Shown piece after piece: positions 47,838 through 53,683 of a stretch of DNA of 64,000 nucleotides. The stretch comes from Fontimonas thermophila. GTDB lineage: Bacteria; Pseudomonadota; Gammaproteobacteria; Nevskiales; Nevskiaceae. Within the stretch, counting starts at the first letter, position 1, and every line of letters begins with the position of its first letter. The stretch covers positions 248,001-312,000 of the forward strand of contig NZ_FOOC01000001.1 in the NCBI RefSeq assembly GCF_900113085.1, read 5' to 3'. The position numbers and the translations under genes are program-made. The notes below the pieces were generated by a model that was given only the letters and a program-made list of their open reading frames with translations, had not been told where the DNA came from and did not search any database.

Positions 47838-49430
47838 TCAGCCGTGTTCCTTGGTGTCGAGGAAGCGCACGTCCGGATGACGCTCCTGGGTCATCGACAG
47901 ATTCACCGCCGAGGACGCCAGATAGACGAGGTCGCCGTAGTGATCGCGCGCGAGCCGCTGCTCGTTCTTGTCGATGAATTCCTTGAGCTTGCGCGCATCG
48001 TCACAGCTCACCCAGCGCGCTGTATGCACCGGCACCGGCTCGAAGACCGCATCGACGCCGTATTCGTCCTTGAGGCGGTATTGCACGACATCGAACTGCA
48101 GCACGCCGACGGCGCCGAGGATGATGTCGTTGTTCGCCAGCGGCCGATACACCTGCGTCGCCCCTTCCTCGGATAGCTGGTCCAGTCCCTTGTTGAGCTG
48201 CTTGGCCTTGAGCGGATCTTTGAGCACGACGCGGCGGAACAGCTCCGGCGCGAAATTGGGAATGCCGGTGAAGCGCAGCGCCTCGCCCTCGGAAAAGGAA
48301 TCGCCGATTGCAATCGTGCCGTGATTGTGCAGGCCGATGATGTCGCCCGGATAGGCTTCCTCGATGGTTTCGCGTTCGCTGGCCATGAACGTCAGCGCAT
48401 TGGCGATGCGCACCGGCGCGTTCAGGCGCACGCTGTGCAGCAGCATGCCCTTGCGATAAACCCCCGAGCAAACGCGCAGGAAGGCCACGCGGTCGCGGTG
48501 CTTGGGATCCATGTTCGCCTGAATCTTGAACACAAAGCCGCTGAACGCCGCCTCGGTCGGCTGCACGGCGCGCGCACCGCCGGGGACGAGTGCGTTGCGC
48601 GGTTGCGGTGGCGGCGCCCATTCGGTGAAGCCATCGAGCAGCTCGCGCACGCCGAAGTTGTTGATCGCCGAGCCGAAGAACACCGGCGTCAGGCGTGCAG
48701 CGCGGTAGGCGTCGAGATCGAAGCCGGTACCGGCCATCTGCAACAACTCGATTTCGTCGAGCAACACCTTGTACACCTCACCGAAGCGCTCGGTGAGTCC
48801 CGGTGCGCGCAGCCCCGCGATGGTTTCGATCTCGGAGACACGGTGTTTGTCGCCGGAATACAGATAAAAGCGGTCCTCGAGCAGGTGATACACCCCTTTG
48901 AACGCGCGCCCCATGCCCAGCGGCCAGGTGATCGGCGCACAATGCAGCCCGAGCACCTTCTCGATCTCGTCGAGCAGTTCCAGCGGCGGGCGACCTTCGC
49001 GGTCGCATTTGTTGACGAACGTGACGATCGGTGTGTCGCGCAGCCGGCAGACCTCCATGAGCTTGATCGTGCGCGCCTCGACGCCTTTGGCCGCGTCGAT
49101 GACCATCAGCGCGGAGTCCACCGCGGTCAGCGTGCGGTAAGTGTCCTCGGAGAAATCCTCGTGTCCCGGCGTGTCGAGCAGATTGACGATCTTGCCGTTG
49201 TACGGGAACTGCATGACCGACGTCGTTACCGAGATGCCGCGCTGCTGCTCCAGCGCCATCCAGTCCGAGGTCGCGTGCCGGCTGGCCTTGCGCCCTTTGA
49301 CCGTACCGGCGAGCTGGATCGCCCCGCCGAACAGCAGCAGCTTTTCGGTGAGCGTGGTCTTGCCGGCGTCGGGGTGAGAAATGATGGCGAACGTGCGACG
49401 ACGCGCCGCCTGTTCGGCGACTGCACTCAT
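47838..49430 (-). CDS. prfC: Peptide chain release factor 3
   Basis: A GTPase that removes RF1/RF2 from the ribosome after termination; 530 residues. G1 SHPDAGKTT is near residue 18, G2 [13 protein letters not shown]3 DTPGHEDF, G4 NKCDREG. The C-terminal part has RF3 landmarks [14 protein letters not shown] (here [14 protein letters not shown]) and RWVSCDD. The ATG at 49430 has GGAGG six bases upstream; a TTG two codons earlier is not used. It lies between the hvf cluster and the desaturase on the minus strand. Confidence 0.96.
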
Positions 49431-49481
49431 GGACAACCTCCGGGAGAGCGGTCATTGTACCCGCTGCCCCGGAACGCTGTT

Positions 49482-50264
49482 TCAGCGCCGCGTGCCGAGC
49501 ACGATGTCGCGCGCGCGCAGATCGGCGAGGATGCGCGCGCCCTGGGCGACGACGGATTGAGGATCGGGATGGGCGAGTTCGGCAGCGATGCGCAGCAGCA
49601 GCGCACGTCCGCTCGCAGCGGGTTCGGCCTCGATCAGCGCGACCAGACGCGCGGTGACGGCATTGATCTCCAGGAAGCGGACGCGGTCTTCACGGTCGCG
49701 GTTGACGATCAGATACGTGGGCGAGTCGCCGGGTGCCTGCGGCTGGAATTGCGGCCCGATGCGGTGCACCGGATAGGCATAGACCAGCGGCCACGCCAGC
49801 GGTGACAGCAGCGGGCATCCGGCGAGCAGATCACCTTCCGGGTCGGCCTGCTCGATGGGCAAATCCTCTGGCGCGATCGCGAGCGCGAGCTCGACCCATT
49901 CATAGTGCGCGAGCTCGCGCAGGAACGGCGGATCGTCGGCGTGTTCGCCGCGCTCCGCCTCGAGATAGCGCAGGAACTCCTCGGGCAGACGATGGAACTG
50001 CGGTGCGGTGCAGCGGTGGCGCGTGAAAAAATCGCGCACGCGCGCATGCCAGACCGCATCGCTCGACAGTTTGCGTAGCACCGGGAATGCACTGGCCAGG
50101 CAGCTCTCGACATTGTTGTAGAACAGCTCGCGGTAAATCCGCAGCCGCCGCTCCTCGATGCCAGCGAAGGCATTGCGCGGGTCGCGCAGATGCGCGGCGA
50201 ACGCGCGCTGGCGCGCACGCCAGTCGCGCTCAGTTGCGGACGCGCAGCGCTGATCGTTAGCCAT
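49482..50264 (-). CDS. hvfC: HvfC-family RiPP maturation protein (DUF2063)
   Basis: 260 residues. The N-terminal DUF2063 domain is clear ([79 protein letters not shown]). HvfC partners the DUF692/MNIO enzyme HvfB, binding the leader of the precursor and helping modification; this is family knowledge. It starts within the last codons of hvfB (8-base overlap), so the two are translationally coupled. It is the last gene of hvfABC; prfC follows 51 bases later on the same strand. Confidence 0.92.
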
Positions 50265-51099
50265 AGGCGAGCTGCAGCGATCGATGCCGCGCCTGGATAT
50301 CACGGATGTGCCCGACTTCGCCGAGCAGCACGTCCAGCGGCGGAATGTTGAAATCGCGCTCGAGCAGCGTCGGCCGCACGCCGAAGCGTGCATAGGCGCG
50401 GTCGAGCAGGGCCCACACCGGATCGATCACGTCGGCGCCGTGTGTATCCACGCGCAAGTCCTCGGCCTCGACGTAATGACCGGCGACGTGGATCCAGCGC
50501 ACGCGCTCGCCGGGCAATGCGTCGAGAAAGGCCTGGGCGTCGTAGCGATGGTTGATGCTGTTGACGTAGATGTTGTTGACATCGAGCAGCAGATCGCAGT
50601 CGGCGCGCTCGATCACCGCCGTGATGAACTCCAGTTCCGTCAGTTCGGTGCACAGCGGCGCGTAATAGCTGATGTTTTCCAGCGCAATGCGGCGCTCGAG
50701 GATGTCCTGCACGCGGCGCACGCGTGCGGCGACGTACTCCACCGCCTCGGCGGTGAACGGCATCGGCATCAAGTCGTAGAGATGCCCGTCGTCGGAACAA
50801 TAGCTCAGATGCTCGCTGTAGTCGGCAATCCCATGCAGGTCGAGGAAAGCCTTGAGCTCACGGACGAAATCCTCATCCAGCGGCGCCGGCGCGCCGATCG
50901 ACAGCGAAAGGCCGTGCGCCGCGAACGGATAGCGTTCGGTCAGCGCGCGAAATGCACGGCCCAGGCGCCCGCCGACGCGCATCCAGTTCTCCGGCGCGAT
51001 CTCGAGGAAATCGACGCAGGGCGCAGATTCACCCAGTGGTTCGAGCAAGGCCCGGCGCAGGCCAAGACCGGCGCCGGCAATGGTCGGGTGCAGGCTCAT
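50257..51099 (-). CDS. hvfB: HvfB, MNIO-family (DUF692) multinuclear iron oxidase
   Basis: 280 residues. DUF692 landmarks and candidate metal ligands are visible: [20 protein letters not shown] (His62), YSEHLSYC (Glu96, His97), ENISYY (Glu141, Asn142), DVNNIYVN (Asp173, Asn175), HVAGHY (His204, His208), DTHG (Asp219, His220) and LLERDFNIP (Glu247, Asp249). MNIO enzymes oxidise Cys in RiPP precursors; HvfB is reported to convert Cys in EGKCG motifs to copper-binding thiooxazoles. It follows hvfA after a strong hairpin and overlaps hvfC. Relatives include MbnB and BufB, but the EGKCG precursor next door fits HvfB. Confidence 0.93.
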
Positions 51100-51110
51100 C
51101 GCATTACAAA

Positions 51111-51139
51111 ACCCGGCGCCGGGCGGCCCGGCGCCGGGT
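51111..51139 (-). terminator. Perfect 13-bp hairpin between hvfA and hvfB (attenuator candidate)
   Basis: ACCCGGCGCCGGG (51111-51123) pairs perfectly with 51127-51139, leaving a 3-base loop. On the minus (hvf) strand it follows the hvfA stop by 8 bases and is followed by a short T-run (TTTT with the stem's last T), 11 bases before the hvfB ATG. No clear Shine-Dalgarno for hvfB is seen there. A partial terminator or mRNA stabiliser would make more precursor than enzyme. Confidence 0.7.
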
Positions 51140-51147
51140 GGGCGGAC

Positions 51148-51471
51148 TCACTGGGTCTTGTTTTCGCCGCACTTGCCCTCGCCGCATTTGCCCTCGTTGG
51201 CCTTGGCGTCGGCCTTCTTTTCACCGCACTTGCCTTCGCCGCACTTACCCTCGCCGCACTTGCCCTCTTTGGCCTTGGCATCGGCCTTTTTTTCGCCACA
51301 CTTGCCCTCGCCACATTTGGCCTCGCCGGATTTGGCGTGCTCACCAGCCGATGCGACCATGTAGCCGGCGCCGAGGTCGGATGCCTGGAACACAGACGCC
51401 TGGGCAGCGGCGGTGCCGAGTGCGAACGCGGCGCCCAGCGCCACTGCAAAGGGTTTACGTGGAATGTCCAT
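51148..51471 (-). CDS. hvfA: HvfA-type RiPP precursor with EGKCG repeats
   Basis: 107 residues. Signal peptide MDIPRKPFAVALGAAFALGT, cleavage near AQA/S (residues 25-26). The segment FQASDLGAGYMVASAGEHAK (28-47) is the conserved pre-core of this family. The core has seven Cys, at 53, 58, 72, 77, 82, 96 and 101: six in EGKCG and one in EAKCG, grouped 2, 3 and 2 and separated by the linker GEKKADAKAK/N. A strong AGGAGG lies six bases before the ATG at 51471, so translation should be high. A TATAGT -10 candidate lies at 51551-51556 on this strand. hvfB and hvfC follow; no DoxX-type hvfD is nearby. Confidence 0.93.
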   Translation of the reverse strand: MDIPRKPFAVALGAAFALGTAAAQASVFQASDLGAGYMVASAGEHAKSGEAKCGEGKCGEKKADAKAKEGKCGEGKCGEGKCGEKKADAKANEGKCGEGKCGENKTQ

Positions 51472-51550
51472 CGTGGTCCTCCTGAGTCGGAAAATGCCCA
51501 TGCGGGCGGATTGGGGGGTCCCGTGCCGCGGCCTTGTCGCCGCGCCTGCG

Positions 51551-51556
51551 ACTATA
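51551..51556 (-). promoter_or_regulatory. Candidate -10 (TATAGT) for hvfABC
   Basis: TATAGT on the minus strand, about 80 bases before the hvfA ATG, in the gap after the EAL-domain gene. No good -35 is visible at 17 bases, so it may use an alternative sigma factor or an activator. It suggests hvfABC has its own promoter. Confidence 0.35.
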
Positions 51557-51622
51557 CGCAGGAACCGCGCGTTTGGATGCCGCCAGCCTGGCTGGCTGGA
51601 GCCCAGACCGCGTCTGCGGGCG

Positions 51623-53683
51623 TCAAGCCGCGACCGCGCGCGACTCGAACTGCCGCGACCATTCGATGAACTGCTCCTCCGGCAGCGCGCGGCTGTAGAG
51701 AAACCCCTGCTGCAAGGCGCAGCCAAGTTCGCGCAGGCGGCGGGCATCCTCCTCGGTTTCCACGCCCTCGACGACCAGCGACATGCTAAGGCGGCTGGCC
51801 AGTTCGGCCAACGAGCGGATGATTTCGGCCGCACGTGCGTTGTGTGCAGCCGCGCGCGCGACGATGGGATCGATCTTGATGCGGTCGATCTGGAAGCGAT
51901 ACAGGTGGGTGATCGACGAATAGCCGGTGCCAAAGTCATCCAGGCACAACTGGATGCCGCTGGCGCGCAGCAGGCGCAGGATTTCGGCGGCGGCGTCGAG
52001 GTGTCCGACCAGCGCAGTCTCGGTGACCTCGGCGATCAGTTGTGAGGGCGGCAGGCCGCTTTCGGTCAACGCCTCGCGACAGATCTGCAGGATGTACGGG
52101 GACAGCAGCTTGGGCGAGAGGTTGAACGACACGGTCAGGACAAAGCCGCGCTCGGCCCAGGCCTTGACCGAGCGGCAGGCCTGGATGAGGACCGCACGGG
52201 TCATGTCGCGGATCGTTTCCGATCCTTCCGCGATGAGGATGAATTCGCCCGGCAGCACCACGCGGCCATCGGGCTGGCGCCAGCGGACCAGCACCTCCGC
52301 GCCGATGACCTTGCCGCGCGCGGCATCGACGACCGGCTGGAAGAACGGGATGAACTGGCCTTCACGCAAACCGGCGCGGATCTGTTCGGCCAGCACCAGG
52401 TGCTTGCGCTGGCGGTGCGTATGCCCGCGCTCGCCGAAGCGCAGCTGGCCGGTGCCGTCTGTGCGGGCCTGGCGCAAGGCTTCGAGACAGACGTTGACGT
52501 ACTCTTCGGGATCGCGGGCATCGTCCGGATAGATCGCCGCGCCGGCGGAAAACCCGAGCAGATAACGCTGATTCTCGACTTCGACCGGCTCACCCAGGCG
52601 CGAAAACGCCTCCGCGGTAATCCGCTTGAGATCGGCGCGCGTCACGGCCTCGGCGATGCCGCGGTCGACCAGCACACCGAGGATTTGCGGCTCGACGCGG
52701 AACACCGACACCGGCATGTGATCGAGCGCGTGCAGCCGCTCCGCGGCCGCGCGCATGATCGCCTCGGCGGTGCGCAGGCCAAAGCCGCTGCGCAGACTGT
52801 CGTAGGTATCGATGCCGATCAGAATCAGCCCATGCGTGCCATCGATCGGCCGCAGCCGGCGTACCTCGCGCAGCTCCAGATCCAGACTGTTGCGGTTGGG
52901 CAGGCCCGTGCCCGGGTCTTCATAGGCGATGCGGCGGATGTGCTCGGCCTGCGCGCGCAGCTTGCGGATCGCGCGCACGATATCGCCGAACTCATCCGGC
53001 GTCTCCTGCAGCCGCTGGTTCGGCTGATGGCCGGTGAGTACGGCATTGAGGCTGCCGGTGACCGCACCGAGCGGCTGGATCAAGCGCCGGTAGGCCCAGA
53101 CACTCAAGGCCAGCGACAACAGCCAGGCGCCGCCGACGATGCCCAGGGCGATGCCGAGCCGACCGCGCAACGTCGCCAGGCCGCGCAGCGCACCGGCCAG
53201 CCCACTGCTGTTGTCGGTTTCGAGCAGATCGGCAAAGGCCCGCCCGGTGCGGTATTGCAGATCCAGCGTCCATGCCGAGAGCTGCGCCAGGGTGTCGGGT
53301 GTCGGCGGCTGCAGCAACAGAGCCTTGATCGGATCGATGTGCTCGCCGAGCAGCGCCTGCACGCGCGCTACCCGCTCGGCCTCGGCGCTGGGGAGAAAAC
53401 GGAGCTGGCCCACGGCCGCGTCCAGCGCCTGCTCCAGCCGCTGGAGTGCCGGCGCCGGATCGGCTCCGGCGGCGAACGCCTGTTGCGCCTGCTCGGCCTG
53501 GTAATGCGCCTCACTGAGCGCGCGGCTGATCGCGATCGACATCGAAATGCGGTTGGCGCGACCACGCAGTTCCGGTTCGATGTCCTGGTCCGACCCCAGC
53601 AGCGACAACATCAGCACGCCCGCCAGTGCAATGGCGAGATTGACCAGCACGATCACCGCAATGAATTTGGTCCGGACCGTCAT
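51623..53683 (-). CDS. Membrane GGDEF/EAL protein, dead GGDEF and probably active EAL
   Basis: 686 residues: an N-terminal helix (TKFIAVIVLVNLAIALAGVLML), a periplasmic helical sensor (about 30-175), a second helix (LGIALGIVGGAWLLSLALSVW), a HAMP-like region to about 250, GGDEF (250-430) and EAL (445-686). At the GGDEF site the sequence is RVEPQILGVLV, so the signature is lost and cyclase activity is not expected. The EAL part keeps AEVLVRW, NLSP, EVTET, LDDFGTGYSS and VVEGVETEE, so c-di-GMP phosphodiesterase activity is likely. It is the first gene before hvfA on the strand, 151 bases away. Confidence 0.88.
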   Translation of the reverse strand: MTVRTKFIAVIVLVNLAIALAGVLMLSLLGSDQDIEPELRGRANRISMSIAISRALSEAHYQAEQAQQAFAAGADPAPALQRLEQALDAAVGQLRFLPSAEAERVARVQALLGEHIDPIKALLLQPPTPDTLAQLSAWTLDLQYRTGRAFADLLETDNSSGLAGALRGLATLRGRLGIALGIVGGAWLLSLALSVWAYRRLIQPLGAVTGSLNAVLTGHQPNQRLQETPDEFGDIVRAIRKLRAQAEHIRRIAYEDPGTGLPNRNSLDLELREVRRLRPIDGTHGLILIGIDTYDSLRSGFGLRTAEAIMRAAAERLHALDHMPVSVFRVEPQILGVLVDRGIAEAVTRADLKRITAEAFSRLGEPVEVENQRYLLGFSAGAAIYPDDARDPEEYVNVCLEALRQARTDGTGQLRFGERGHTHRQRKHLVLAEQIRAGLREGQFIPFFQPVVDAARGKVIGAEVLVRWRQPDGRVVLPGEFILIAEGSETIRDMTRAVLIQACRSVKAWAERGFVLTVSFNLSPKLLSPYILQICREALTESGLPPSQLIAEVTETALVGHLDAAAEILRLLRASGIQLCLDDFGTGYSSITHLYRFQIDRIKIDPIVARAAAHNARAAEIIRSLAELASRLSMSLVVEGVETEEDARRLRELGCALQQGFLYSRALPEEQFIEWSRQFESRAVAA

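Follow-up and report, generated by a model that had tools for sequence, protein, structure and literature searches.

We identified the three-gene cluster hvfABC, which lies on the minus strand at 49482-51471 of a 64 kb window (C19:248001-312000 of the genome), as fonABC of the hot-spring bacterium Fontimonas thermophila, a captophorin cluster (HvfABC / Buf_EGKCG / oxazolin type), and assign this reading, together with the mechanism proposed below, a probability of about 97%. A preliminary description of the same DNA had called it a copper-type MNIO RiPP cluster of the HvfABC kind with no linked DoxX partner, and this assignment holds. The finding is real and was correctly read; it is already published for this cluster and is not new. 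All features are collected in Table 1.

Table 1. Features of the cluster and of its surroundings (positions in the window).
Feature	Position	Strand	Basis
prfC (release factor 3), 45 bp after hvfC	47838..49436	-	NCBIfam
hvfC / fonC, DUF2063 + NGO1945_C RRE partner protein (PME1), 260 aa	49482..50264	-	NCBIfam, Pfam, 3DEE
hvfB / fonB, MNIO (DUF692) maturase, 280 aa	50257..51099	-	NCBIfam, Pfam, alignment to 3BWW, named FonB residues
GC-rich perfect hairpin (13 pairs, 12 G-C), then TTTTG, between hvfA and hvfB	51111..51139	-	folding
hvfA / fonA, fontiphorin precursor, 107 aa, seven Cys	51148..51471	-	family models and match to FonA in the available part of PMC13097082
HvfA core: EAKCG + 6 EGKCG in 2-3-2 blocks, two EKKADAKA(K/N) linkers	51166..51324	-	sequence
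Putative Sec-type N-terminal signal peptide of HvfA, about the first 25 residues, with probable cleavage after AQA	51397..51471	-	read by eye
Gap of 151 bp separating hvfA from the EAL gene; hvfX slot in G039 (Sinimarinibacterium), empty here	51472..51622	.	comparison
GGDEF-EAL protein gene, upstream neighbour of hvfA, conserved in the genus	51623..53683	-	Pfam, synteny

The fon cluster of F. thermophila was chosen and characterized in the laboratory by Gadgil et al. 2026 (PMC13097082), the available part of which describes it as minimal, consisting of MNIO, PME1 and precursor only, the gene content also seen in the window. The peptide FonA67-80 as printed there, SGEAKCGEGKCGEK, is identical to residues 48-61 of the window HvfA, and the LysC peptides FonA67-80, 88-104 and 110-124 all map to HvfA with a constant offset of 19. 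For two of these three peptides, the m/z values calculated with a loss of eight hydrogens (458.8519 for 67-80 and 505.8699 for 110-124) equal the expected values of the paper within 0.1 ppm. Further, all four residues named for FonB in the accessible text (R15, R16, D249 and F250) are present in the window HvfB. The AlkB-AlkG fusion of the window's genome could be aligned with chain A of PDB 8F6T along 468 residues, and the alignment as printed shows no mismatch; 8F6T is the F. thermophila AlkB-AlkG fusion according to the available part of PMC10113152. The window cluster is taken to be the fontiphorin cluster because the AlkB-AlkG match, the peptide sequence, the offset, the masses and the FonB residues agree; the identity of FonA itself is based on one peptide's sequence, the masses, the numbering and the FonB residues. 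The genome encodes two separate AlkB-rubredoxin fusions, L089 1480-2979 (-) and L091 1450-2982 (-), of which the L089 one matches 8F6T.

That the window instead carries a cluster closely related to that of fontiphorin but from another species, distinct from the published one, is very unlikely. The sole difference seen from the accessible text of PMC13097082 is the expected m/z of FonA88-104, which is printed as 562.2098 whereas 562.8817 was calculated for the loss of 12 H corresponding to three 5-thiooxazoles, 1195 ppm apart. The printed value, 2 H lower, fits a loss of 14 H on the window peptide, compared with the 12 H stated in the text of the paper, and the whole-protein loss given there for modified FonA is about 30 Da, compared with 7 x 4 = 28. 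By our own arithmetic, an extra disulfide joining two of the three middle-block thiooxazole thiols would explain both values. Against another species stand the 468-residue match to the F. thermophila structure and the agreement in one peptide sequence, in the positions of all three peptides and in the masses of two of them. In addition, Sinimarinibacterium flocculans came first among the 80 named loci retained for comparison, a set from which the genome of the window may be missing; its HvfB is 81% identical and its precursor is different.

The precursor carries the repeated E(G/A)KCG 5-mers characteristic of captophorins (HvfABC, Buf_EGKCG). Our recount gave residue 50 for EAKCG and residues 55, 69, 74, 79, 93 and 98 for EGKCG, with Cys at 53, 58, 72, 77, 82, 96 and 101, in the same 2-3-2 pattern of six EGKCG and one EAKCG with seven Cys as initially described; the linkers with KKADAKA(K/N) that had been reported are found between the blocks as EKKADAKAK and EKKADAKAN. 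Judged by eye, the putative signal peptide consists of a basic start, a hydrophobic stretch and the AQA site. When all six frames of the 64 kb window were scanned from stop to stop, the hvfA frame was the sole one with at least two KCG, and its DNA shows a 72-bp tandem period with scattered synonymous differences among the units. The HvfA domain model NF050137 matched with 63.2 bits (NCBIfam, cut-off 19.5) while the narrower HvfA equivalog NF050188 scored 51.4, under its cut-off of 95, and no Pfam family was found for HvfA at E 0.001. The features of a DUF2282 bufferin 1 system were likewise not found, as MNIO_BufB scored 272.9 bits, below its cut-off of 310, and no DUF2282 was detected in the precursor (Pfam, E 0.001).

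Both enzymes belong to the expected families. HvfB matched NF003818 with 431.1 bits (cut-off 360) and HvfC matched NF050145 with 309.3 bits (cut-off 142; both NCBIfam), and Pfam assigned HvfB to MbnB_TglH_ChrH and HvfC to DUF2063 (PF09836) plus NGO1945_C (PF22106), DUF2063 being the domain proposed earlier. Solved relatives are 3BWW for HvfB and 3DEE for HvfC. Among the residues invariant in 20 aligned HvfB rows are H62, H97, E141, N175, H204, D218, H220 and E247, which by alignment we take to be candidate metal ligands. The DUF692 ligand set noted before would be conserved, and the cluster would combine an HvfB-family MNIO carrying these putative ligands with a DUF2063 PME1 partner, as captophorin clusters do. 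One MNIO gene was found genome-wide. The overlap of eight bases between hvfB and hvfC, also noted before, was measured at 50257-50264.

The chemistry of the system can be drawn from the published work, as far as available. FonB pairs with FonC in a heterodimer, and three Fe copurify with it (PMC13097082), and in the H. influenzae homologue an active Fe(II)/Fe(III) cluster is reached only with HvfC (PMC13419390). Co-expression of FonA with FonB/FonC in E. coli converts all seven Cys to 5-thiooxazoles, 4 H being lost per Cys; the EAKCG Cys is no exception, since FonA67-80 loses 8 H (PMC13097082). The preliminary description had predicted a loss of 4 Da per Cys, which is the published value; its statement that the product, the number of modified Cys and the effect of the EAKCG variant were open does not stand, as the same paper already gives 5-thiooxazole, seven and a modified EAKCG. 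In vitro, a two-repeat substrate is modified while a one-repeat substrate is left unmodified, and repeat positions 1 and 2 tolerate most changes except Pro, and Arg at position 1 (PMC13097082); because of this tolerance, the EAKCG variant is not special. The MBP-fused product binds up to four Cu by native MS, fontiphorin aggregates with copper, and F250 of FonB was modeled as a contact to Lys3 and Gly5 of the repeat (PMC13097082). A literature search, mostly without full texts, found no report on the copper physiology of F. thermophila itself.

In the mechanism we propose, HvfC as the DUF2063 RRE partner and the multi-iron MNIO HvfB form a heterodimer that oxidizes each of the seven precursor Cys to 5-thiooxazole, as published for E. 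coli expression and, with a shortened two-repeat substrate, in vitro. This step proceeds without the DoxX-family HvfX, as published for the in vitro reaction, and the modified product binds copper as reported. The putative signal peptide and work on relatives further suggest that the precursor would be exported through Sec and would buffer copper in the periplasm.

The fon cluster is a laboratory reference case of the captophorins, which are among the most populous RiPP classes, and the window is for this reason well explained rather than new. The oxazolin cluster hvfABC + hvfX of nontypeable Haemophilus influenzae shares the EGKCG precursor, the MNIO with its RRE partner and the 5-thiooxazole product but has six modified Cys in three AEGKCGEGKCG units and hvfX in the operon, according to the available part of PMC13419390, whereas the window has seven Cys in a 2-3-2 arrangement and no hvfX. 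The Buf_EGKCG/oxazolin bufferins have a signal peptide, as HvfA putatively does, and share the repeated EGKCG, the MNIO and DUF2063, with DoxX in some combinations only (PMC12452194, as far as available). Methanobactin (MbnABC) also relies on an MNIO acting on Cys to give a copper peptide; it differs in carrying oxazolone/thioamide instead of 5-thiooxazole, in having no nearby PME1 partner and in being induced by copper starvation, as described in the accessible text of PMC13097082. Beyond the published work, we add the finding that the genome has no HvfX over the cut-off, the placement of hvfX across the family and the comparison of the chromosomal slot.

The usual DoxX partner is named HvfX in NCBIfam and in PMC13419390, the available part of which does not contain the name HvfD; among the papers listed by a literature search for HvfX, this was the one that deals with the subject. 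As initially described, the window holds no DoxX partner and none was found beside hvfABC; neither place holds one, as prfC starts 45 bp after hvfC and the 151-bp gap on the hvfA side is empty. A remnant of hvfX in this gap was rejected, since its matches to the G039 region did not exceed 9 bases. Genome-wide, no HvfX above the cut-off of 80 was found in the 2.73-Mb assembly (28 contigs, 99.59% complete, so that a gap could hide a gene), and an HvfABC + HvfX operon, with HvfX adjacent or elsewhere in the genome, was accordingly not recovered. The search for an unlinked DoxX gene suggested in the preliminary description did return one distant DoxX-family gene, the only one genome-wide (C22:267-566, 58.6 bits to Pfam DoxX), though nothing of HvfX type over the cut-off. 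This gene, together with the genome of G044, where an HvfX over the cut-off sits on a different contig from hvfBC, would speak for a partner acting in trans. The C22 protein, however, reaches 37.3 or 31.4 bits to the HvfX model against the cut-off of 80 and is unlikely to be the missing HvfX, DoxX matches under the cut-off are spread over 46 of the 58 genomes of the family regardless of whether hvfA is present, and the gene adjoins YaeF-like and ECF sigma genes and no RiPP genes (the ORF lies 51 bases from the contig end, with its upstream context unseen). We thus give an in-trans role of the C22 gene a small chance. At L085 (51-695 (+), 670-1494 (+) and 1694-2506 (-)), this DoxX gene is seen at the contig end, beside the YaeF-like gene and convergent with the ECF sigma factor gene.

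The neighboring EAL gene raises a further alternative, namely that it forms one functional unit with hvfABC in which c-di-GMP signaling controls the metallophore. The EAL phosphodiesterase gene said to precede the cluster is present and encodes GGDEF plus EAL; it is a neighbor by synteny and not a shown partner. It adjoins the cluster in the window and does so in each of the five further clusters fetched from the GTDB genus (G039, G042, G044, G046 and G038), as a functional unit would predict. Yet the whole order MFS, desaturase, prfC, hvfCBA, EAL is conserved as synteny of the genus, with the end genes running off some of the fetched stretches, and in 14 clusters fetched from other genera no EAL homologue was found near hvfABC, whereas the unrelated housekeeping gene prfC is near in 6 of the 14. 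Because of this distribution we regard the EAL gene as a neighbor by synteny, reject it as a member of the system and consider a shared functional unit very unlikely. G039 (L121; Sinimarinibacterium) shows the order MFS, desaturase, prfC, hvfC, hvfB, hvfA, hvfX, EAL, which is that of the window plus hvfX, and in G046 and G038 the gap holds a short precursor only. In G042 and G044 (L122 6288-7475 (-) and L123 9020-9997 (+)), a divergent ORF that by eye resembles AraC/cupin proteins occupies the hvfX slot, and it may regulate the cluster in these two genomes.

Across the 58 genomes of the taxonomic family, an MNIO match was found in 48, HvfC over the cut-off in 37, a KCG-repeat precursor match in 25 and HvfX over the cut-off in 21. 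A lack of conserved EGKCG repeats in close relatives had been named earlier as an outcome that would speak against the reading; the 25 genomes show the repeats to be conserved, and this number is a lower bound because the HvfA model misses some precursors, e.g. those of G042 and G044, each of which has one. HvfA and HvfX occur together in 19 genomes, and in all 19 the match starts are less than 1.5 kb apart with hvfX upstream on the same strand, while 6 of the 25 genomes with HvfA (G000, G013, G016, G019, G020 and G030) have no HvfX over the cut-off. Outside this family the gene is often placed differently, and an upstream hvfX as a general rule was rejected, since of the 48 named loci with a DoxX-like ORF in the stretch covered (out of 80, several of whose stretches end at contig ends) 11 have it upstream and 37 downstream of hvfB. 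Absence of hvfX also fails as a clade marker: on a 20-row HvfB tree 6 changes of the label are required, well-supported branches forcing 3 or more of them, and its clustering does not exceed that of shuffled labels (as low a value was reached in 173 of 500 shuffles for 'yes' and in 153 of 500 for 'no'). The tree therefore favors neither gain nor loss of hvfX at the F. thermophila branch. Relatives with and without HvfX at one chromosomal slot make the role of the DoxX partner testable.

Precursor variation was surveyed among relatives. The leaders are strongly conserved by eye in most of 18 precursors (KPLAVALGAAFALTG..AQASVFQ.SDLGAGYMVA). The core repeats vary: the Cys count ranges from 2 to 12 in the 69 precursors that the script picked and that carry Lys before half or more of their Cys, and seven Cys are ordinary since 12 of the 69 have this number. 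The syntenic clusters L139 5871-7105 (G046) and L140 6120-7237 (G038) keep the leader with a single Lys-free core Cys pair, EHACGEGMCG and EHACGEGLCG, respectively. Ser at the position of FonB F250 was seen in 2 of 95 HvfB rows (19 of which have no script-found precursor), both from this one branch with the Lys-free pair. The link between F250 and Lys is only suggestive because five other rows with Lys before less than half of their Cys (L044, L051, L061, L079 and L080) keep Phe. It is conceivable, though we put this forward with considerable doubt, that the cluster is modular in the genus, with hvfX coming and going at one slot (HvfX-free in F. thermophila and G042, intact in G039) and the two-Cys core plus Ser of G046/G038 representing a natural re-tuning of enzyme and substrate. 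If true, this branch, with its two-Cys precursor and changed substrate-contact residue, would test how far the core can shrink.

Between hvfA and hvfB, the hairpin has a minimum free energy of -31.7 kcal/mol with z -3.34 over 50 nt and z -2.36 over 75 nt. It could possibly be a partial terminator or an mRNA-stabilizing stem and would then perhaps set the precursor level above the enzyme level. As a general feature of hvfA-type genes it was rejected: z was below -2 in just 25 of 70 downstream stretches, many of which run into hvfB, and the hairpin is for this reason at most lineage-specific. The 70 stretches comprised that of the window, 18 from precursors in fetched genomes (two of them in G056) and 51 from named loci with a script-found precursor, with five loci duplicating fetched genomes and an uncounted number of stretches shorter than 60 bases or containing N omitted. 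A consensus search gave no sigma-70 promoter for hvfA, and a tRNA was the only known RNA family found within the window. In two family genomes the enzyme genes are separated, hvfB and hvfC lying about 1 kb apart in G001 (L136 8373-11034) and about 8 kb apart in G002, while they overlap or adjoin elsewhere.
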